Assembly (NCBI GenBank): GCA_016195985.1
Contig: JACPYP010000011.1
Coordinates: 496,001 to 560,000 of the forward strand
DNA length: 64,000 nt
Direction of reading: 5' to 3'
DNA from: Acidobacteriota bacterium
GTDB lineage: Bacteria > Acidobacteriota > Holophagae > Holophagales > Holophagaceae
The position numbers and the translations under genes are program-made. The notes below the pieces were generated by a model. It made no database searches. It saw only the letters and a list, made by a program, of their open reading frames with translations, and was not told the origin of the DNA. Shown in pieces: positions 14,777 through 29,886 of this stretch. Numbering within the stretch: the first letter of the stretch is position 1; each line of letters begins with the position of its first letter.

Positions 14777-16051
14777 ATGCGGATCGCAGTCATCGGCCTG
14801 GGTTATGTCGGGTTGCCACTCGCCCTGGAACTCGCGAAGAAATTCCCCGGGACCGTGGGATTCGACATCCACGAGGCCAAGATCGCCGAACTGAAGAAGG
14901 GGGTCGACCGCACCAGGGAAGTCTCGCCCGAGGCGCTGCGCACGACGACCCTGGCCATGACCAGCGACCCCGAAGGCATGCGCGGGGCGGACTTCTTCAT
15001 CGTGGCCGTGCCGACGCCCATCGACGGGTGGAAGCGGCCCGACCTGACCCCCGTCGTCAAGGCCAGCGAGACCGTGGGCAAGGTCATCGGCAAGGGCAGC
15101 ATCATCGTCTACGAATCCACAGTCTTCCCCGGCGTCACCGAGGACATCTGCGGCCCCATCCTCGAAAAGCAGTCCGGTCTGAAGTGCGGCATCGACTTCA
15201 AGCTCGGCTACTCGCCGGAGCGCATCAATCCCGGCGACAAGGTCCACACGGTGGACCGCATCGTGAAGGTGGTCTCCGGGCAGGATGCGGAAAGCCTGCG
15301 CGCCATCGCCGGAGTCTATGGCGCCGTCATCGCCGCGGGAGTCCACGAGGCCTCCTCCATCAAGGTGGCCGAGACCGCCAAGGTGATCGAGAACACCCAG
15401 CGCGACATCAACATCGCCCTGATGAACGAACTCGCCATCATCTGCGAGAAGGTCGGCATCCGCACCTCAGAGGTGCTGGCGGCGGCCCGCACCAAGTGGA
15501 ACTTCCTGCCCTTCAGCCCCGGCCTGGTCGGCGGGCACTGCATCGGCGTCGATCCCTACTACCTCACCACCAAGGCTGAGGAATTGGGCTACCACCCCCG
15601 GGTGATCCTCGCCGGCCGCCAGATCAACGACGACATGGGTGCCTACGTCGCGCAGAAGCTGGTCAAGCTGATGATCCAGCAGCAGATTCCCGTGAAGAAC
15701 GCCCGGGTCGGGATCCTGGGCCTCACCTTCAAGGAAAATGTCCACGACATCCGCAACAGCAAGGTGCCTGACATCGTGGCGGAGCTGCAGCAGTTCAACA
15801 TCACACCCCTGATCCACGATCCGATGGCGGACCCGGCGGAGACCCTGCACGAGTACGGCCTCCAGCTCTGCAAGCTGGAGGAGATCCGCGACCTGGATGC
15901 CTTGGTCCTGGCCGTCAACCACCAGGTGCTCCTGGACCTGGGCCTGGACGCCATCCGCGCCTGCATGAAGGAATCCGCCGTATTCATCGACGTGAAATCA
16001 GTCTTCGCCCCCGGGGACTTCCCGCAGGGCGTCGCCTACTGGAGCCTGTGA
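14777..16051 (+). CDS. UDP-N-acetylhexosamine 6-dehydrogenase (TviB/WbpO type)
   Basis: 424 residues, GGAGGAG upstream of the ATG. Rossmann motif GLGYVGLPLA (7-16), the YEST-x-PG substrate region (112-119) and the catalytic Cys255 in VGGHCIGVDPYYL mark the UDP-glucose/GDP-mannose dehydrogenase family. The sequence FSPGLVGGHCIGVDPYYLT and the absence of the short Ugd-type active site favour the N-acetyl-hexosamine branch (Vi antigen TviB, WbpO). It would make UDP-GlcNAcA or UDP-GalNAcA with two NAD. The next gene encodes the matching 4-epimerase, three bases downstream. Confidence 0.93.
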   Translation: MRIAVIGLGYVGLPLALELAKKFPGTVGFDIHEAKIAELKKGVDRTREVSPEALRTTTLAMTSDPEGMRGADFFIVAVPTPIDGWKRPDLTPVVKASETVGKVIGKGSIIVYESTVFPGVTEDICGPILEKQSGLKCGIDFKLGYSPERINPGDKVHTVDRIVKVVSGQDAESLRAIAGVYGAVIAAGVHEASSIKVAETAKVIENTQRDINIALMNELAIICEKVGIRTSEVLAAARTKWNFLPFSPGLVGGHCIGVDPYYLTTKAEELGYHPRVILAGRQINDDMGAYVAQKLVKLMIQQQIPVKNARVGILGLTFKENVHDIRNSKVPDIVAELQQFNITPLIHDPMADPAETLHEYGLQLCKLEEIRDLDALVLAVNHQVLLDLGLDAIRACMKESAVFIDVKSVFAPGDFPQGVAYWSL

Positions 16052-16054
16052 TTC

Positions 16055-17080
16055 ATGCGTTTTGACGAAACCCTTGCCGAATTGAAGGCCGCTCCCAAAA
16101 CCTGGCTGGTGACCGGCGTGGCCGGGTTCATCGGCTCAAACCTGCTGGAGGCCCTGCTGAAAGCGGGCCAGACCGTGGCGGGCCTGGACAACTTCGCCAC
16201 CGGATCCCAGGCCAACCTGGATGACGTGAAGGGCGTGGTCGGGCCCGAGGCCTGGGCGCGGTTCACCTTCATCCAGGGGGACATCCGGAGCCTGGCGGAT
16301 TGCCAGAAGGCCTGCGAGGGCGCCGACTATGTCCTCCACGAGGCGGCGCTCGGCTCGGTGCCCCGCTCCATCGAGGATCCCATCGCCACCAACCAGGCCA
16401 ACATCGATGGTTTCCTCAACATGCTGGTGGCCAGCCGCGACCAAAAGGTGAAGCGCTTCGTCTACGCCGCGTCCAGTTCCACCTACGGCGACCACCCGGA
16501 CCTGCCCAAGCGCGAGGACAAGATTGGACAGCCGCTGTCGCCCTATGCCGTCACCAAGCTGGTGAACGAACTGTACGCCAAGGTGTTCGGCAGCACCTAC
16601 GGCCTGCAGACCATCGGCCTGCGCTACTTCAATGTCTTCGGGCGCCGCCAGAGCCCCAACGGGCCCTACGCCGCCGTCATCCCTCTCTGGATCGCGGGAC
16701 TCATGCGCAGGAAGGCCGTGGCCATCAACGGAGACGGGGAGACCAGCCGGGATTTCTGCTACGTGGAAAACGTGGTCCAGGCGAACCTGCTGGCCGCCAC
16801 CGCCACCGATCCCGCTGCCACCAGCCAGGTCTACAACGTCGCCTTCGGCGGCCGAACCACCCTGAACCAGCTGCACGAAAAGCTGCGCTCCCGGCTGGCC
16901 CGCCATGATGCCGCCATCGGCGCCCTGGAGCCGGACTACCGCCCCTTCCGCGGCGGCGACGTCCGCCATTCCCAGGCCGACATTTCCAAGGCCGCCGGCC
17001 TTCTGGGCTATGCTCCGCAATTCGACGTGGACCGTGGCCTGGACGAAGCCCTGGCCTGGTACCGGGCGAACCTCGGATGA
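16055..17080 (+). CDS. UDP-N-acetylglucosamine 4-epimerase family (WbpP/TviC type)
   Basis: 341 residues. Extended SDR with NAD motif [13 protein letters not shown] (20-32), [10 protein letters not shown], catalytic Tyr-x3-Lys in [11 protein letters not shown], and [19 protein letters not shown], which is close to the WbpP/TviC consensus. The N-terminal extension before the Rossmann strand ([17 protein letters not shown]) is also characteristic of WbpP-like enzymes. It probably interconverts UDP-GlcNAc(A) and UDP-GalNAc(A). Its stop overlaps the next start by 4 bases. Together with the preceding dehydrogenase it gives a two-step route to a HexNAc uronic acid. Confidence 0.92.
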
Positions 17081-18189
17081 AGGTGGCCGTCTTCGGGAGC
17101 TACGCCCCGTCCCTGTGGCTGTTCCGCGCGCCCATGATGCGGGCCATGGTGGCCGCGGGCCATGAGGTGACCGGACTCGCTCCGAACGGCGATCAGGCCC
17201 TCATCGACAACCTCGCCTCCATCGGCGTGGCCTACCGGCACGTCCCCCTGGGCCGCACCGGGCTCAATCCCCTGGAGGACCTCCGCTCTCTCTTGGCCAT
17301 CCGCGCCGCGCTCAAGGACCTCCGTCCGGATGTCCTTCTGAGCTACACCATCAAGCCGGTCATCTACGGCTCCTACGCCGCGTCCATGGTCGGGGTTCCC
17401 CACTGCCACGCCATGGTGACGGGCCTGGGTTCCAGCCTCATGGGCGAAGGCTTCAAGCGCAAATGCATGGCCGCCCTCTCCAAGTGGCTGTACCGCCGCG
17501 GCCTTTCCGGCATCGAAGGGGTCTTCTTCCAGAACCCGGACAACCGGGCCTTTTTCGAAAAGCACCGCCTGCTTCCCGCCACCTGCCGGATCACGCAGAT
17601 CAACGGTTCCGGCGTGGACCTGGCGCAGTTCCCCTTCACGCCCCAGGCGGCGCCCCCCCTCACGTTCCTGCTGGTCGGGCGCGTGACGCGGGAGAAAGGG
17701 ATCATGGAATTTGTCGAGGCGGCGAGACGCCTCAAGGCCAAGCACCCCGGCACCCGGTTCCATCTGCTGGGCGGCTACGACACCAATCCCAGCGCCATTT
17801 CGAAGAGCCAGGTCCAGGCCTGGGTGGACGAGGGGACCATCGAGTACCTCGGCACGGTCAAGGATGTGCGTCCCATGCTGTCCGCCGCCCAGGTGGTGGT
17901 GCTGCCCAGCTACGGAGAGGGGACCCCCCGCTCTGTCCTGGAGGCCATGGCCATGGGCCGGGCGGTGGTGACCACCCTGGCCCCCGGCTGCAAGGAAACC
18001 GTCATCGAAGGCCAGACGGGCTTCCTGGTGCCCACTCGGAACGTCGAAGCCCTGGCAGAGGCCATGGAGCGCTTCATCACGGACCCCGGCCTCGCCATCC
18101 GCATGGGCGCGGCCGGCAGGGCCTATGCCGAAGAGAAATACGACGTCGACAAAGTCAACGCCGTCATCCTGAAGGCCCTGGGCCTTTGA
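17077..18189 (+). CDS. Glycosyltransferase family 4, PglA-like
   Basis: 370 residues, start overlapping the epimerase stop (ATGA). The N-terminus [19 protein letters not shown], the [13 protein letters not shown] block and the C-terminal [20 protein letters not shown] and [20 protein letters not shown] motifs match GT4 enzymes of the PglA/CapM type, which transfer GalNAc or a similar HexNAc to an undecaprenyl-diphosphate-linked sugar. Cytoplasmic or peripheral membrane. The E-G-T-P-R-S-V-L-E stretch holds the nucleotide-binding glutamates. Substrate is inferred from neighbours only. Confidence 0.9.
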
Positions 18190-18268
18190 TGGGCAGGCCG
18201 GACCAGCATGCTTCGGAATGCGGAAGATTCCCATTCGCGGGTATCTTGAATCGCCGCCAGGAGTGCTC

Positions 18269-20086
18269 ATGCGCATCGGCTTCATAGGACTCGGAACCAT
18301 GGGTCAGCCCATGGCCCGCAACCTCCTGGGCCTCGGACACGCGCTGACGGTCTACAACCGCACCCCTGGCCGCGCCAAAGCCCTGCTGGCGCTGGGAGCC
18401 AAGGAGGCGGCCACGCTGTCCGACGTGGTGCAGGAGGCCGAAGTCGCCATCACCATGGTTTCCGATGACCAAGCCGTCTCGGAAGTGGTATACGGTCCGG
18501 GCGGCCTGCTCCAGTGTCTCGCCCCCAAGGCCATCCACCTCTGCATGAGCACCATCGGCGTGGAAACCTCCGCGGCCTTGGCCTCGGCCCACGCGAAGGC
18601 CAACCAGGGCTACGTGGCCGCGCCCGTCTTCGGAAGGGCGGACAGCGTCGAATCGCGCCGGATTTGGATCGTGGCGGGCGGGCCCGAACCCCAGGTGAAC
18701 CGCTGCCTGCCCATCTTCGTGGCCCTGGGCCGAGACCACACCCGCGTGGGCTCCAAGGCCTCGCTGGCTCATGCCCTCAAACAGGGGGGGATGACCCTCA
18801 GCCGGGCCATGGAAGAGGCCGTGGCGCAGATCCTCACCTTCGCGGAGAAGGCTGGCATGGATCACTCCAACTACCTCCGCCTTCTGAACACGGCGATCTT
18901 CAAATCCCATCTGGTGGACGCCAATGGTGCCGTCAGCATCCGCCCCTCCTTCGATCCGAGGGATCAATCCCTGGACTTGGCCGCCAACGAGATGCTGTTC
19001 CATGCGGCCCGCCGGGTGGGCGTGCCCGTTCCGGCCGCGGATCTCCTCAACGCCCGGCTCCAGGCGGCCGGGGCCCGGGGCTGGGGGGAGCAGGATCTCG
19101 CCGCCCTTTCCGGAGACCCCGAACCGGCCGAAGCACCAGACCGGCCGGCCCCGCCAGCCCAGGCCCCGGCCCAGGCCCCGGCGCCGGCTCCAACGCCAGT
19201 CCCGGTTCCGGCTCCTGCCCCGGTTCCAGCTCCAGCTCCAGCTCCAGCTCCAGCCCCAGCTCCAGCCCCAGCTCCGGTTCAAGCTCCGGTTCAAGCCGCG
19301 GTCCCGACACCACCCCTGGCTTCAGAGGCTTCCCCCGCCCTGGCCAAGAAACCCATGAACGTGCCCGCTCCGACCCGCGGAGTGCCTCCCGTGCGAATTC
19401 CCACGCCGGTCTTCAAGCCGATCCCCCCGCCCACGCCGCCAGGGCCTCCCGTGCAAATCCTCTCCAGCCCTTCGCCGCAAGCGCCATCGGCGCCCACCCT
19501 GGTGCTGAAGGTGAACCCTTCCGCTCTTTCCGCGGCGCCAGGCGCCCCGGTCAAGACCCCGGCCACCCGGCCCCCGCGGCGGAACCCGGAACGGCGGAAA
19601 GGAAACGATCCGAAACGCTCCCAATCCCGGCGCCAAGAGGAGCGCAGGACCGCCCAGCCTCCGCCGATCGGGGCGCCAGCCCCGGTCCAAGCCCCGGTCC
19701 AAGCCCCGGCCCCGGCTCGGGCGCCTCAACCGCCCGTTCTTGCCCGGCGCCTCTCCTCCGACACCTTCCCGGCCCTGGAGGGCGGCTCCAAAGTGTTGAT
19801 GGATCTGGAGCAGACCAGCCATTTCGAAGTGATCCTGGGGCAGGTCTGGGCCTGGTCCCAAGGCAGGCGCTTCGCCACATCCTGGCACAGCCTGGCGGAA
19901 GTGGAAGGGGCCTTCAAACACGTGCTCTTCCTGCCCATCAAGCGCCACCTCCTCCTTCGCCCGGAAGCGGTCCAGAATCTGAAGCCCACCTTCGGCGGCG
20001 GGGCCAAGGCGGACATGGGCGCCAACCTGGAGATCGACGTGGGCCGCGCCGCCGCCCTGCGGCTCAAGGAGCTGCTCGGGCTCTGA
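18269..20086 (+). CDS. 3-hydroxyisobutyrate-dehydrogenase-like protein fused to a LytTR DNA-binding domain
   Basis: 605 residues from the ATG at 18269 (AGGAG just upstream). Residues 1-282 form a beta-hydroxyacid dehydrogenase: NAD(P) motif GFIGLGTMGQPM, STIG, AAPVFGR, then the second helical domain. The catalytic-lysine segment reads GSKASLAHALKQGG (161-174), in which the usual K-x3-N cannot be placed confidently. Residues 283-508 are a Pro/Ala/Gln-rich low-complexity linker, partly coded by CCAGCT-type repeats. Residues 509-605 fit a LytTR domain: MDLEQTSHFEVI, SLAEVEGAF, FLPIKRHLLLRPEAVQNLKP, EIDVGRAAALRLKELL. This suggests a metabolite- or cofactor-responsive transcription factor. An 80-base gap separates it from the glycosyltransferase. 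The LytTR call is by eye. Confidence 0.8.
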   Translation: MRIGFIGLGTMGQPMARNLLGLGHALTVYNRTPGRAKALLALGAKEAATLSDVVQEAEVAITMVSDDQAVSEVVYGPGGLLQCLAPKAIHLCMSTIGVETSAALASAHAKANQGYVAAPVFGRADSVESRRIWIVAGGPEPQVNRCLPIFVALGRDHTRVGSKASLAHALKQGGMTLSRAMEEAVAQILTFAEKAGMDHSNYLRLLNTAIFKSHLVDANGAVSIRPSFDPRDQSLDLAANEMLFHAARRVGVPVPAADLLNARLQAAGARGWGEQDLAALSGDPEPAEAPDRPAPPAQAPAQAPAPAPTPVPVPAPAPVPAPAPAPAPAPAPAPAPVQAPVQAAVPTPPLASEASPALAKKPMNVPAPTRGVPPVRIPTPVFKPIPPPTPPGPPVQILSSPSPQAPSAPTLVLKVNPSALSAAPGAPVKTPATRPPRRNPERRKGNDPKRSQSRRQEERRTAQPPPIGAPAPVQAPVQAPAPARAPQPPVLARRLSSDTFPALEGGSKVLMDLEQTSHFEVILGQVWAWSQGRRFATSWHSLAEVEGAFKHVLFLPIKRHLLLRPEAVQNLKPTFGGGAKADMGANLEIDVGRAAALRLKELLGL

Positions 20087-20166: not shown

Positions 20167-20250
20167 CATAAGATCAACATGTAGTTGTTTCATGATGGGG
20201 TGGATGTAGACGACCCGCCCTTCCCCGGAACCCTTTCGCTGGTAGCGCTC

Positions 20251-21477
20251 ATGGCCCTGACTCCCGCACCCACGCTCAATCCCACGCCCAATCCCACGCT
20301 CAATCGTTGCCCGCCCTTCTCGCCCTGGCCCCACTACGCTTCCGACGAGGTGGAAGCGGTGGCCCGCGTGATGGAAAGCGGCAAAGTGAACTACTGGACC
20401 GGATCGGAGGCGAGGGAATTCGAAACCGAATACGCCTCCGCCTCGGCCTGCGACAAGGCCATCGCGCTCTGCAACGGCACCGCCGCGCTGGAGCTGGCCA
20501 TCCAGGCCCTGGACATCCCGCCTGGATCGGAAATCATCACCAGCCCCCGCACCTTCATCGCCAGCGCCAGCTGCGCCGTGATGCGCGGCTGCACCCCCGT
20601 GCTGGCCGACGTGGATCCCGACAGCCAGAACCTCACCGCGGAAACCATCCAGAAGGCGATCACCAGCCGCACCAAGGCCATCATCCCCGTCCACCTCGCG
20701 GGCTGGCCCTGCGACATGGATCCCATCATGGAACTGGCTGCGCAGCATGGCCTGAAGGTCATTGAGGACTGCGCCCAGGCGAACGGAGCCACCTACAAGG
20801 GCCGCCCTGTGGGCAGCCTGGGCCACATGGGAGCTTTCTCCTTCTGCCAGGACAAGATCATCACCACCGGCGGAGAGGGCGGCCTGGTCACCACCAGCGA
20901 TCCCGATGTCTGGCGCCGCGCCTGGAGCTTCAAGGACCATGGGAAGAGTTGGGCGGCGGTCTACGAAGCCCAGCATGCGCCCGGGTTCCGGTGGCTGCAC
21001 GAATCCTTCGGGACCAACTGGCGCATGACCGAGATCCAGGCGGTCATCGGGCGCCTCCAGCTGAAGAAGCTGCCGGAGTGGACGCGGATCCGCCAGGAGA
21101 ACCTGGCCCGCCTCAACGCCGCCTTCCAGTCCTTCAGTTGCGTCCGCACCACGCCAGCCCCGGCCCACATCGGCCATGCGGCCTACAAGGCCTACGTGTT
21201 CGTGCGTCCTGGGCACCTGCGCGAGGGCTGGAGCCGCGACCGCATCATGGAGGAGATCAATGCCCGCGGCATTCCCTGCTTCAGCGGCAGCTGCAGCGAG
21301 ATCTACCGGGAAAAGGCTTTCACCCGGAGCGGCCTTGGCCCCAAGGAGCGCCTCCCCGTCGCACGGGAACTGGGCGAGACCAGCCTGATGTTCCTTGTCC
21401 ATCCCACCCTCACCCGGCAGAACCTGGACGACACCATCGCCATCGCCTCCGGCGTGTTCAGCCAAGCCTCCTGCTGA
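20251..21477 (+). CDS. DegT/DnrJ/EryC1/StrS-family sugar aminotransferase
   Basis: 408 residues from the ATG at 20251; the ribosome site is weak and the first 20 residues (Pro/Thr/Asn repeats) are low complexity, so the start is uncertain. PLP aspartate aminotransferase fold with NGTAALELAIQAL, the VIEDCAQANGA block carrying the PLP-contacting Asp, and the Schiff-base Lys in FSFCQDKIITTGGEGG. Family members aminate 3- or 4-keto nucleotide sugars using glutamate. The substrate may be the 4-keto product of the dehydratase at 42222-44333, as in bacillosamine-type pathways (inference). Four bases separate it from the next gene. Confidence 0.9.
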   Translation: MALTPAPTLNPTPNPTLNRCPPFSPWPHYASDEVEAVARVMESGKVNYWTGSEAREFETEYASASACDKAIALCNGTAALELAIQALDIPPGSEIITSPRTFIASASCAVMRGCTPVLADVDPDSQNLTAETIQKAITSRTKAIIPVHLAGWPCDMDPIMELAAQHGLKVIEDCAQANGATYKGRPVGSLGHMGAFSFCQDKIITTGGEGGLVTTSDPDVWRRAWSFKDHGKSWAAVYEAQHAPGFRWLHESFGTNWRMTEIQAVIGRLQLKKLPEWTRIRQENLARLNAAFQSFSCVRTTPAPAHIGHAAYKAYVFVRPGHLREGWSRDRIMEEINARGIPCFSGSCSEIYREKAFTRSGLGPKERLPVARELGETSLMFLVHPTLTRQNLDDTIAIASGVFSQASC

Positions 21478-21481
21478 TTCC

Positions 21482-22162
21482 ATGACCGCCCGCCGCCCCC
21501 TGTACCAGTTCATCAAGCGCGCCCTGGATCTGCTCTACGCGCTCCTGCTCCTCCCGGTCCTCGGCCCCGTGATGCTGATCGTCTGGGTCCTCGTGCGATG
21601 GAAGATGGGCAGCCCGGCGGTTTTCAAGCAGGTCCGGCCCGGACTGGATGCCCGCCCCTTCGTGATCCACAAGTTCCGCAGCATGATCGACGCCTGCGAC
21701 GCCGAAGGAAACCCCCTGCCCGACAAGGAGCGCCTCACCTCCTTCGGGCGCCTGCTCCGCCGCTCCAGCCTGGACGAGCTGCCCCAGCTGCTCAATGTGC
21801 TGAAGGGCGACATGAGCTTCGTGGGGCCCCGCCCGCTGCTCATGGAATACGTCCCCCGCTACACGCCCGAGCAGCGCCGGCGCCTCGACGTGCGCCCGGG
21901 CATCACCGGGCTGGCCCAGATCGCCGGACGGAACACCGTCGCCTGGGACGAGCGCCTGGCCCTCGACGTGAAATATGTGGACGAGGCATCCCTCTGGCTC
22001 GACCACCTCATCCTTCTCCGCACGGTCAAGAAGGTGCTCCGCTCCGAAGGGGTTCCTGCCTCGGGATTGGATCCGAACGAAAAATTCCAGGGCACATTCA
22101 AGCCTGGCGCCAGCCCAGCAGAGGCGCCGGTTCATCCAGAGAACAACTCCGGACAGCCCTGA
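21482..22162 (+). CDS. Initiating sugar-phosphate transferase (PglC/WcaJ family)
   Basis: 226 residues from the ATG at 21482. One N-terminal membrane (re-entrant) segment (about 12-38) precedes the bacterial sugar transferase domain: VFKQVRPGLDARPFVIHKFR, the SSLDELPQLLNVLKGDMSFV catalytic Asp-Glu region, GPRPLL and DVRPGITGLAQIAGRN. The short form without an extra N-terminal membrane domain is like PglC. It transfers a sugar-1-phosphate to undecaprenyl phosphate, starting the repeat unit. The C-terminal 25 residues are Pro/Ala-rich and unrelated to the fold. Confidence 0.93.
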   Translation: MTARRPLYQFIKRALDLLYALLLLPVLGPVMLIVWVLVRWKMGSPAVFKQVRPGLDARPFVIHKFRSMIDACDAEGNPLPDKERLTSFGRLLRRSSLDELPQLLNVLKGDMSFVGPRPLLMEYVPRYTPEQRRRLDVRPGITGLAQIAGRNTVAWDERLALDVKYVDEASLWLDHLILLRTVKKVLRSEGVPASGLDPNEKFQGTFKPGASPAEAPVHPENNSGQP

Positions 22163-22266: not shown

Positions 22267-23091
22267 ATGGCTTCGATGCGCCCCTCTGGAAAAGGCCCCT
22301 TCCCCTCGCCCCAAGAATCAACCCCGCGCGCCTCTGGCTCACCGGCGCGCCGGCCGTTGGCGAGCCCGGCGCCTGCGCAGCCGAAGGCAGGCGGATCCCA
22401 GGCTGATGGGGGCGAGTGGTGCGTCCTGGTGGTCGAAGACGAGCCCTTGGCCCGCACCAGCATCCGCGCCACGCTGTCCAAAGAGGGCTTCAGAGTCGTC
22501 GAAGCGGAAAGCGGCGAGGAGGCGCTGGGGCTCTTCGATGCGGCCGCCCCCCACGTGGTGATTCTCGACATCGGCCTGCCCGGCCTCGACGGCTTCGAGG
22601 TGTGCCAGAAGATCCGCGCGAAACGGGTGGATACGGGCATCCTCATGCTCACGGCCCGGACCGATCCGGAAGACAAGATCACGGGACTCACCCTCGGCGC
22701 CGACGACTACCTGGTCAAGCCCTTCAATCCCGGGGAACTGATCGCCCGCATCCGGGCAGTGCTCCGGCGCTCCGTCCTGATGAACCAGGCCGAGGAGCCG
22801 CTGGCCTTCGGAGATCTCTGCCTGGATTTCCAGGCCCAGCAGGCGTTGAAGAAGGGTGTCGACGTGAACCTGTCGCCGAGGGAGTTCCTGCTCCTGGCCA
22901 TTCTCCTGCGCCACCCCGGCCAGGTCATGACCCGGGACCAGCTCGGCAAGGAAGTCTGGGGCGCCAACCATCATGGGAATGCCCGGGCCCTGGATGTCTT
23001 CGTGTGCAAGCTCCGCGAGAAGATCGAAGACGATCCCACCAACCCGCAGGTCATCCGCACCGTCCGCGGCGCGGGTTACGTCTGCGGCTGA
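22267..23091 (+). CDS. OmpR/PhoB-type response regulator with disordered N-terminal extension
   Basis: 274 residues if the ATG at 22267 is used. Residues 1-50 are Pro/Ser/Ala-rich and precede the receiver domain (VLVVEDEP; Asp101 in VILDIGLPGLDG; TARTD; the KPFNP lysine). A winged-helix DNA-binding domain follows (SPREFLLLAILLRHPGQVMTR, VFVCKLREKI, VIRTVRGAGYVCG). No kinase gene is adjacent, so it is an orphan. AAGGA lies about 13 bases before the ATG; a start nearer the receiver cannot be excluded. A likely promoter (TTGAAA, TATTTT) lies in the 104-base gap upstream. It may regulate the polysaccharide genes that precede it. Confidence 0.9.
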   Translation: MASMRPSGKGPFPSPQESTPRASGSPARRPLASPAPAQPKAGGSQADGGEWCVLVVEDEPLARTSIRATLSKEGFRVVEAESGEEALGLFDAAAPHVVILDIGLPGLDGFEVCQKIRAKRVDTGILMLTARTDPEDKITGLTLGADDYLVKPFNPGELIARIRAVLRRSVLMNQAEEPLAFGDLCLDFQAQQALKKGVDVNLSPREFLLLAILLRHPGQVMTRDQLGKEVWGANHHGNARALDVFVCKLREKIEDDPTNPQVIRTVRGAGYVCG

Positions 23092-24151: not shown

Positions 24152-25750
24152 TTGACACCCCCATCGACCCTCAACCCCCGCCTCAGCCCCACCCAGCGCG
24201 CCATCGAGCGCCTGCCCGCGCACCTGCGCCGCTACGTGGTGGACCAGGCCCACGATGCCTACACCCCGCGCGACCACGCCGTATGGCGCCACATCCTCCG
24301 CCAGCTCACGGCCCGCCTGAAGGATACGGCCCATGCCAGCTACCTGTCCGGCCTGGCGGCGACGGGCATCGGCCTCGACCGCATTCCCAGCCTGGACGAG
24401 ATGAACGAGAAGCTCGAAGCCCTGGGATGGTGCGCGGTGGGCGTCCGGGGCTTCATCCCGCCCGCGGTGTTCACCGAATTGCAGTCGCTGGGCGTGCTGG
24501 CCGTGGCCGCCGACATCCGCAGCCACGAACACATCGAGTACACCCCTGCGCCGGACATCGTCCACGAGAGCGCGGGCCATGCCCCCATCCTGGCTGACCG
24601 CCGCTACGCGGAATACCTGAAACGCTGCGGCGAAGCGGGCTTCCGCGCCATCGCCTCCGTGGAGGACCAAGCCGTCTACGAGGCCATCCGCAACCTCAGC
24701 GTGGTGAAGGAGGACCCCGCGGCCACCGGCGAGGAGCTCCGCCTGGCCCAGGAGCGGCTGTCAGCGGCCTGCGCCAGCCGCCGCTACGTCAGCGAAAGCA
24801 CCAAGGCCAGCCGCCTCTACTGGTGGACCGCGGAATACGGCCTGGTGGGCGAACTCTCGGATCCGAAGCTCTATGGCGCCGGCCTGCTGAGCAGCCTGGG
24901 CGAGGCGGCGCACTGTCTCACGGAGTCGGTCAGGAAGGTGCCGCTGAGCCTCATCTGCGCCGACACCGAGTACGACATCACCCAGATGCAGCCTCAGCTG
25001 TTCGTCGCCCGGGATTTCGATCACCTCTTCGAGGTGCTGGAGGCCTTCGAGGCCACGCTCGGCTGGCGCCGGGGCGGAGACCACGGCCTGGAGGAGGCGT
25101 TGCGCGCCCGCACCGTGAACCACCTGGCGCTGGACGGCGGCCTCGAACTCACGGGCAGGGTCGTGGCCCGAATCCCGGCCCGCGGCGAGATGGCGCCGGG
25201 CCTCTGCACGGCCCTGGCAAGGGTGGAAGGCCCCATTCAGATCTCCCGCGAAGGCAGGGCCCTCGACTGTCCCTGGTCTGGCGAGGCCCTGGTGGCCTTC
25301 GGCAGCGGGGTACTGCCCCACCGGGGAGCCTTCAGCCTGGATCTGCCCTCGGGGCTGTTCCTCACCGGCTTCCGCGTGGGCGAACACGAGGTGATCAACC
25401 TGCGGGGCCACCAGGATGGGCGGCCCCTGGACCTGCCCAGTTGGGCCCTGCTCTTCCTCAGCGCCGGCCTGCCTTCCGTGGCCGGCGGCCCGGCGGATCC
25501 CGGTGCCTGGGACCGCTGGTTCGGCGATCATTCGGCCCTGGCGGAAGGGGAGGCCGAGGCCCAGGCCCGGGACCGGAAGGCCACGGCCCTGCCCCGGGAA
25601 CTGGCCGGGCTCTATGTGGAGGCGGATCTCCTCAGGCGAAGCGGGCCGGTCGCCCCCTCGCGTTTGACCGCCCTGCGGGAACGGGCCGTGAAGTACCCTG
25701 GCGAGTGGCTGCTGCAGACAGAGCTCGCGGAATTGGAGGCCATGCCATGA
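24152..25750 (+). CDS. phhA: Aromatic amino acid (phenylalanine 4-) hydroxylase, long form
   Basis: 532 residues starting at TTG 24152 (GGAG six bases upstream; no ATG nearby in frame). Residues about 20-300 are the pterin-dependent hydroxylase core: SLDEMNEKLEALGW, the iron-binding PDIVHESAGHAP with its two His, and the Glu ligand in YWWTAEYGLVGE. It converts phenylalanine to tyrosine using tetrahydrobiopterin-type cofactor and O2. Proteobacterial PhhA is about 260-300 residues, so the extra 230 C-terminal residues are unusual, though long forms occur in other phyla. The stop overlaps the pterin dehydratase start by 4 bases, confirming the pathway. Confidence 0.93.
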   Translation: MTPPSTLNPRLSPTQRAIERLPAHLRRYVVDQAHDAYTPRDHAVWRHILRQLTARLKDTAHASYLSGLAATGIGLDRIPSLDEMNEKLEALGWCAVGVRGFIPPAVFTELQSLGVLAVAADIRSHEHIEYTPAPDIVHESAGHAPILADRRYAEYLKRCGEAGFRAIASVEDQAVYEAIRNLSVVKEDPAATGEELRLAQERLSAACASRRYVSESTKASRLYWWTAEYGLVGELSDPKLYGAGLLSSLGEAAHCLTESVRKVPLSLICADTEYDITQMQPQLFVARDFDHLFEVLEAFEATLGWRRGGDHGLEEALRARTVNHLALDGGLELTGRVVARIPARGEMAPGLCTALARVEGPIQISREGRALDCPWSGEALVAFGSGVLPHRGAFSLDLPSGLFLTGFRVGEHEVINLRGHQDGRPLDLPSWALLFLSAGLPSVAGGPADPGAWDRWFGDHSALAEGEAEAQARDRKATALPRELAGLYVEADLLRRSGPVAPSRLTALRERAVKYPGEWLLQTELAELEAMP

Positions 25751-29699: not shown

Positions 29700-29727
29700 A
29701 ACGGCCCCCGGATCCGGGGGCCGTTTT
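29700..29727 (+). terminator. Rho-independent terminator of the ccs operon
   Basis: A perfect self-complementary 26-base sequence (29700-29725, centred on GGATCC) with GC-rich arms is followed by TTTT. It lies 17 bases after the ccsA stop. Confidence 0.9.
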
Positions 29728-29886
29728 CATGCCGCGAAGAGCGCTTCATGCGGATTTGAGTTCAAAAGACAAGGAACACCCCCAAACCCCCCGGCCGGGA
29801 TGCCTGGGGGTGAATGTCCTTTTCTATTGGATTGAACGCAACTCTTTAGCCAGATCGCACCAACGATAGAAATCCCCCGCGGAGAC
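29728..29886. other. Intergenic stretch between convergent units, no gene seen
   Basis: The sequence between the two facing terminators is less GC-rich than the coding DNA around it. It contains the palindrome-like CACCCCCAAACCCCC / GCCTGGGGGTG (29776-29812), which can form a hairpin. No open frame with a ribosome site and no RNA gene is recognisable. Confidence 0.5.

Follow-up and report, generated by a model that had tools for sequence, protein, structure and literature searches.

LytTR domains form the DNA-binding part of response regulators of the AgrA, ComE and AlgR/LytR type, in which they are combined with a receiver domain. LytTR regulators without a receiver are also known, and these have gas-sensing inputs. 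RcoM and CoxC, for instance, are CO-responsive one-component regulators. In RcoM, the input is a PAS module. In CoxC, an MHYT sensor is followed by a disordered linker and a LytTR domain, showing that an input other than a receiver can switch LytTR output (PMC11347149). Dehydrogenase folds have also been found in regulatory chains. GLYR1 contains a catalytically inert beta-hydroxyacid dehydrogenase (bHAD) tetramer that still binds NAD(P)H and functions as a scaffold (PMC13144531), and PutA combines a dehydrogenase (PRODH-P5CDH) with an RHH DNA-binding domain in one chain (PMC5293562). We analysed a gene of the Holophagaceae in which a bHAD module is joined by a long linker to a LytTR domain. 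The original prediction had called a bHAD unfamiliar as a sensing module for LytTR, and our literature search (LytTR with Geothrix or Holophaga, or with dehydrogenases) likewise found, among the papers listed, no description of a bHAD-LytTR architecture, nor of any dehydrogenase input to a receiver-less LytTR regulator. The gene represents a real, conserved and apparently undescribed domain combination, and a variant of the one-component LytTR regulators.

The protein resembles CoxC and RcoM in having an N-terminal non-receiver sensor, a C-terminal LytTR domain and no phosphorelay, and it shares a disordered linker with CoxC (PMC11347149). It differs from both in its input, which is a soluble bHAD instead of a membrane MHYT module (CoxC) or a haem PAS module (RcoM), and its linker is three to four times longer than that of CoxC. 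Compared with the LytTR response regulators, the DNA-binding domain is homologous, but their receiver domain is missing. With eukaryotic GLYR1/N-PAC (NP60), the fusion shares a bHAD with a degraded active site, a linker and a putative nucleic-acid-binding part in one chain. However, the domain order is opposite, and GLYR1 carries a PWWP domain and an AT-hook where the fusion has LytTR; no PWWP domain was found in the Pfam scan of our protein. Moreover, the catalytic lysine is a methionine in GLYR1, whereas the fusion keeps the lysine and loses the N/E/F/K/D residues described below. The identity between the two proteins is 27%, over the bHAD only. PutA similarly unites a dehydrogenase and a DNA-binding domain in one chain, but there the enzyme is complete, the DNA-binding domain is of the RHH type and the folds are unrelated to those of the fusion.

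The window, i.e. the whole stretch of 64,000 nucleotides that was analysed (G000:C18:496001-560000), comes from a genome of 4.26 Mb. Within it, the fusion gene is an uninterrupted open reading frame on the forward strand (18269..20086) of 605 codons followed by a TGA stop codon. An AGGAG sequence precedes the ATG at 18269 and all relatives share an N-terminal M/V-R-I, so that this start is the right one, not the longer alternative at 18218. The encoded chain consists of a bHAD module of the 3-HIBDH/GLYR1-like type (residues 1-282; 18269..19114), a Pro/Ala-rich linker (residues 283 to about 508; 19115..19792) and a LytTR domain (residues 496-605; 19754..20083), so that in the window and in its relatives Pfam places an input module and an output domain within one chain.

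In total, we found 11 complete single-ORF fusions in three genera of Holophagaceae. In the genus of the window these are G000 itself, G030 (82% identical), G015, G024, G027, G029, G041 and G043. The second genus contributes G063, with two LytTR domains after the bHAD, and the third (g9) contributes G066 and G070. The dehydrogenase-linker-LytTR order that had been read from one gene is thus borne out by its single ORF, by the domain matches and by the 10 further complete ORFs. A LytTR match, an unbroken frame and homologues of the same architecture, the lack of any of which had been named as fatal to the original prediction, were all found. Incomplete copies are present as well: those of G039 and G067 leave their contigs within the linker, and the halves of the G068 copy lie on two contigs. 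In G065, a one-contig genome, the bHAD and LytTR parts (L138:8455-10105) are in different frames within a repetitive Pro-rich linker, as would result from gene decay, from an error in sequencing or from slippage. This copy is what could be cited for an artificial joining of two genes by frameshift, misassembly or read-through. The single ORF is complete in 11 independent genomes, which rules this out, and the linker stays in frame despite its fast evolution; we consider the probability of such an artefact negligible.

Outside Holophagaceae, the whole architecture was not found at strict thresholds in 93 genomes of the class and 396 of the phylum. The strong matches outside the family are standalone bHADs with open frames of about 290-355 codons. 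In a scan of the GTDB species genomes, from which close relatives of the window's genome may be missing, one (the G027 contig) among the 80 bHAD loci listed had a LytTR tail. In a maximum-likelihood tree of 69 bHADs, all 15 fusions form one group with a support of 100/100, beside 12 standalone bHADs of the window genus. The simplest interpretation is that the fusion arose once. A different combination was seen in Cohnella sp. REN36 (L062:9001-10272), in which a bHAD is followed by a C-terminal PilZ domain (Pfam 2.5e-10, 41.0 bits with a cutoff of 22.5). Here a bHAD has become linked to a regulatory domain a second time, independently of the LytTR fusion.

Residues 1-282 match NAD_binding_2 with E-values of 1.5e-35 to 8.4e-35 (Pfam). 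The match to NAD_binding_11 is weak in the window fusion (23.5-25.5 bits, cutoff 30), and the fusions of G063, G066 and G070 reach 33.8-50.8 bits with this profile. Sequence matches in the PDB are bHADs and 3-HIBDHs (E about 1e-28). AlphaFold2 (AF2) modelled residues 1-180 with a pLDDT above 90 and the remainder of the module with 72-92, and the best PDB fold for the full fusion model is N-PAC/GLYR1 (2uyy; TM 0.89, normalised to the length of the target). Among the NCBIfam models, those for 2-hydroxy-3-oxopropionate (tartronate semialdehyde) reductase, sulfolactaldehyde reductase and HIBADH come nearest. Since all of these matches are far below the equivalog cutoffs, we gave the module no substrate name.

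The active site was compared with those of 42 bHADs from other bacteria, the 15 fusions and the 12 standalone sister bHADs of the window genus. The window bHAD retains the GLGTMG Rossmann motif (G7-G9-G12), R31 (NADP-type), P119, G122 and K171. The original prediction had considered the catalytic lysine poorly placed. This was incorrect: K171 aligns with a column that is lysine in 42/42 of the unrelated bHADs, so that a misplaced lysine is ruled out. Other positions are replaced in the window protein, which has M175, Q187, Q233, N240 and E241 in place of N175, E187, F233, K240 and D241. In the unrelated bHADs, position 175 is N or Q and position 187 is E in 42/42, and F233, K240 and D241 are each found in 41/42. 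All these active-site residues are kept in the 12 standalone sisters. The fusion module thus has the fold and the K171 of 3-hydroxyisobutyrate, tartronate semialdehyde and gamma-hydroxybutyrate dehydrogenases, but differs from them in its added C-terminal part and, in the window, in the five replaced residues. Among the fusions, GxGxxG is retained in 15/15, and R31 and K171 in 14/15 each. N175 is retained in six of the 15, K240/D241 in five and F233 in none. K240-D241 survives only in genus g9, in which some members also keep N175. From residues other than K171, impaired catalysis of the window bHAD is plausible. The proposal of binding rather than catalysis is therefore still favoured through the loss of N175, E187, F233, K240 and D241, but not through the lysine argument on which it had been based.

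Next to this pattern stands the selection acting on the gene. Between G000 and G030, the bHAD, LytTR and linker have dN/dS values of 0.040, 0.135 and 0.35, respectively, compared to 0.05-0.12 for four neighbouring genes. The fusion is under purifying selection and the bHAD is its most constrained part, and because of this low value in spite of a partly lost active site, the fold and a binding site seem to be what is selected. The same constraint could also point to a trigger enzyme, i.e. an active NADP(H)-dependent reductase or dehydrogenase with an altered active site that, by virtue of its LytTR domain, would also control the pathway in which it works, in the manner of PutA with its RHH domain. 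The near-universal K171 and R31, the latter contacting the NADP phosphate, would allow residual or altered catalysis, the g9 fusions have kept K240-D241 and partly N175, and no other bHAD of this type was detected in the G000 genome at E <= 0.001. Nevertheless, F233 is lost in 15/15 fusions, N175 in nine and K240/D241 in 10, E187 is lost too in the window, and the standalone sisters of the same genus retain all of these residues; we regard an active enzyme as unlikely. Loss of catalytic residues under strong constraint would also be expected if the bHAD were only an oligomerisation core that raises avidity or loops DNA, with no ligand switch, as in the GLYR1 scaffold, the structure that it matches best. 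One relative carries two LytTR domains per chain, which fits such a core. A pure scaffold would not need GxGxxG and R31, which are retained nearly everywhere, and this makes a core devoid of sensing quite improbable in our view.

The linker comprises about 220-225 low-complexity Pro/Ala residues, and most of residues 322-508 have an AF2 pLDDT below 50. It is therefore predicted to be disordered for the most part, consistent with the long Pro/Ala linker that had been described from the sequence. Within it lies a basic motif, PPRRNPERRKGNDPKRSQSRRQEERRTA (19571..19654, forward strand), for which AF2 suggests a short helix at residues 449-460. Motifs resembling ERR..RK..ERR were also seen in the linkers of G030, G066, G070, G065, G067 and G068 (loci including L136, L137, L138, L139 and L141). 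The motif persists in several linkers that otherwise evolve fast, and it may contact nucleic acids.

The C-terminal domain of the window protein, searched in isolation, matches LytTR (PF04397) with 21.2 bits (E 3.4e-4, profile positions 33-97 of 98), 1.4 bits short of the Pfam cutoff of 22.6. Whole fusions of relatives pass this cutoff (G063 45.0, G070 25.8 and G066 25.4 bits), and 14/14 C-termini of the family match LytTR at E <= 0.01 and no other Pfam domain. Over its whole length, the domain can be aligned with the LytTR domains of REC-LytTR response regulators from the same genome, genus and family, mostly with 39-50% identity. The AF2 model of the lone domain has low confidence (pLDDT 58), because the alignment contained only the window and related-locus sequences. 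In a Foldseek search with this model, PDB ranks 1-13 were all LytTR (ComE, AgrA-DNA, 3d6w), with E-values above 0.001, and a profile search of PDB sequences with the LytTR alignment gave no matches. We identify the C-terminus as a LytTR domain from the family rather than from the window score, in agreement with the LytTR pattern noticed at first. We found no Pfam match to a receiver domain (Response_reg) in the window fusion. Seven other proteins with LytTR were found in the G000 genome and all appear to be REC-LytTR regulators, leaving the fusion as the only one without a receiver.

Two arginines of the domain, the HRS-like R69 and the SR-like R103, are invariant in our alignment A6 of fusion and response-regulator domains (16/16). 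In the window domain, an arginine is present at the QRH/KRH position and at the (S/G)R position. In AgrA, the residues at these positions (N201 and R233) contact DNA. A motif arginine is lost in some fusions, namely those of G024 (QHH), G065 and G063, where each of the two domains lacks one. In the tandem of G063 (L135:359-2473), one domain keeps the first arginine and has SW for SR; in the other, the first motif reads QSH and SR is intact.

The fusion gene is surrounded by polysaccharide genes on the same strand. Upstream are genes for a member of the UDP-glucose/GDP-mannose dehydrogenase family (14777..16051; Pfam), a TviC-like NDP-sugar epimerase (16055..17080; NCBIfam 5.5e-147, below the equivalog cutoff) and a GT4 glycosyltransferase (17077..18189; Pfam). 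As the fusion starts 79 bp past the stop codon of the latter, co-transcription is likely. Downstream follow a DegT/DnrJ/EryC1 aminotransferase (20185..21477; Pfam 3.3e-90), a bacterial sugar transferase (polyprenyl glycosylphosphotransferase; 21395..22162; Pfam 3.7e-60) and an OmpR-type response regulator (22267..23091), assigned by Pfam and by the loci of relatives. G000, G030 and G024 have in common the upstream genes for UDP-sugar dehydrogenase, TviC-like epimerase and GT4 as well as the downstream DegT and sugar-transferase genes. Upstream of the fusion, Wza- and Wzc-like genes are found in G041 and G043, and a CapD-like gene in G029. The OmpR-type regulator is located immediately 3′ of the fusion in G015, G027, G041 and G043 and two genes later in the window. 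Most loci of relatives also retain, beyond the response regulator, the gene for a biopterin-dependent aromatic amino acid hydroxylase that lies downstream in the window (24152-25750). In genus g9 (G065-G067 and G070), a gene for a periplasmic binding protein adjoins the fusion, in most cases together with a cytochrome c3 gene, and in G063 the neighbour is a porin gene. No exopolysaccharide (EPS) or capsule genes were seen beside the fusion in these two other genera. The proposed link to a polysaccharide locus consequently stands for part of the window genus (G000, G030, G024, G041, G043 and G029), and because of the different neighbours in g9 and G063 a role in EPS is not general.

A LytTR-like domain that no longer binds DNA and instead makes a protein-protein contact, in a protein acting in polysaccharide metabolism, would agree with the EPS neighbours, the marginal LytTR score of the window and the motif arginine missing in some members. 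Against this, both motif arginines are present in the window and most relatives, the EPS context is not seen in the other genera, and to our knowledge all characterised LytTR domains bind DNA. We judge this explanation very improbable.

Furthermore, we searched 11 local intergenic stretches for 9-mers repeated with a period of 19-23 and at most one mismatch, and scanned them for the RcoM pattern TTCNNGCA, the CoxC pattern TTNNNGC and a LytTR consensus. No LytTR-like direct repeats were found in the promoter regions of the fusion itself and at 14.6 kb and 20.1 kb, in a near-perfect 9-bp search that divergent sites would escape. Two overlapping GC-only repeat pairs are present upstream of the response regulator at 22.4 kb. 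Downstream of a CcsB-like gene at 29.7 kb (29726-29753), we observed a TTCATGC pair, TTCATGCCG and TTCATGCGG, 19 bp apart, which resembles the LytTR repeats of RcoM and CoxC; 0.2 such pairs are expected by chance in the stretch.

Since a cofactor-binding bHAD module is joined to LytTR, the protein probably switches genes in response to a metabolite or redox cofactor. We favour, with a probability of roughly 0.6, a soluble one-component regulator of the LytTR class in which the bHAD core is a cofactor- or ligand-binding and oligomerisation module like that of GLYR1/N-PAC. The architecture and its conservation, the domain assignments, the pattern of retained and replaced residues and the purifying selection are results of the analysis, whereas oligomerisation, ligand, DNA binding, targets and the sign of regulation are inferred for this regulator. 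The bHAD would have lost part of its catalytic machinery and kept the Rossmann cofactor site, and it is probably a dimer or tetramer, as is usual for bHADs. Its shape or state of oligomerisation would depend on the binding of NAD(P)(H), perhaps alongside a hydroxy acid or sugar acid. Two to four LytTR domains, displayed on long flexible linkers, would then occupy direct repeats in promoters, which in some species may be those of the surrounding EPS genes. Ligand binding would alter the spacing or state of the tethered LytTR domains at such operators. The sub-cutoff LytTR score of the window, the lost motif arginines, the kept K171, the lack of repeats at the promoters searched and the genus-variable context would speak against a sensor-regulator.

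More tentatively, and at somewhat less than even odds, the fusion may represent a new class of bacterial transcription factor that senses metabolites or the redox state. In this class, a degenerate bHAD that became joined to LytTR once, within Holophagaceae, would respond to NAD(P)(H) or a sugar acid and control the tethered LytTR domains. This would be an independent bacterial counterpart of dehydrogenase regulators of the GLYR1/CtBP type, and a parallel to eukaryotic GLYR1, in which a dead bHAD has come to serve as a scaffold on chromatin. The intact standalone bHADs, the nearly intact g9 fusions and the eroded fusions of the window genus can be arranged as graded steps leading from an enzyme to a likely sensor. 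If the bHAD binds its cofactor and controls LytTR, the family would offer a bacterial example, open to direct testing, of an enzyme that has become a sensor.
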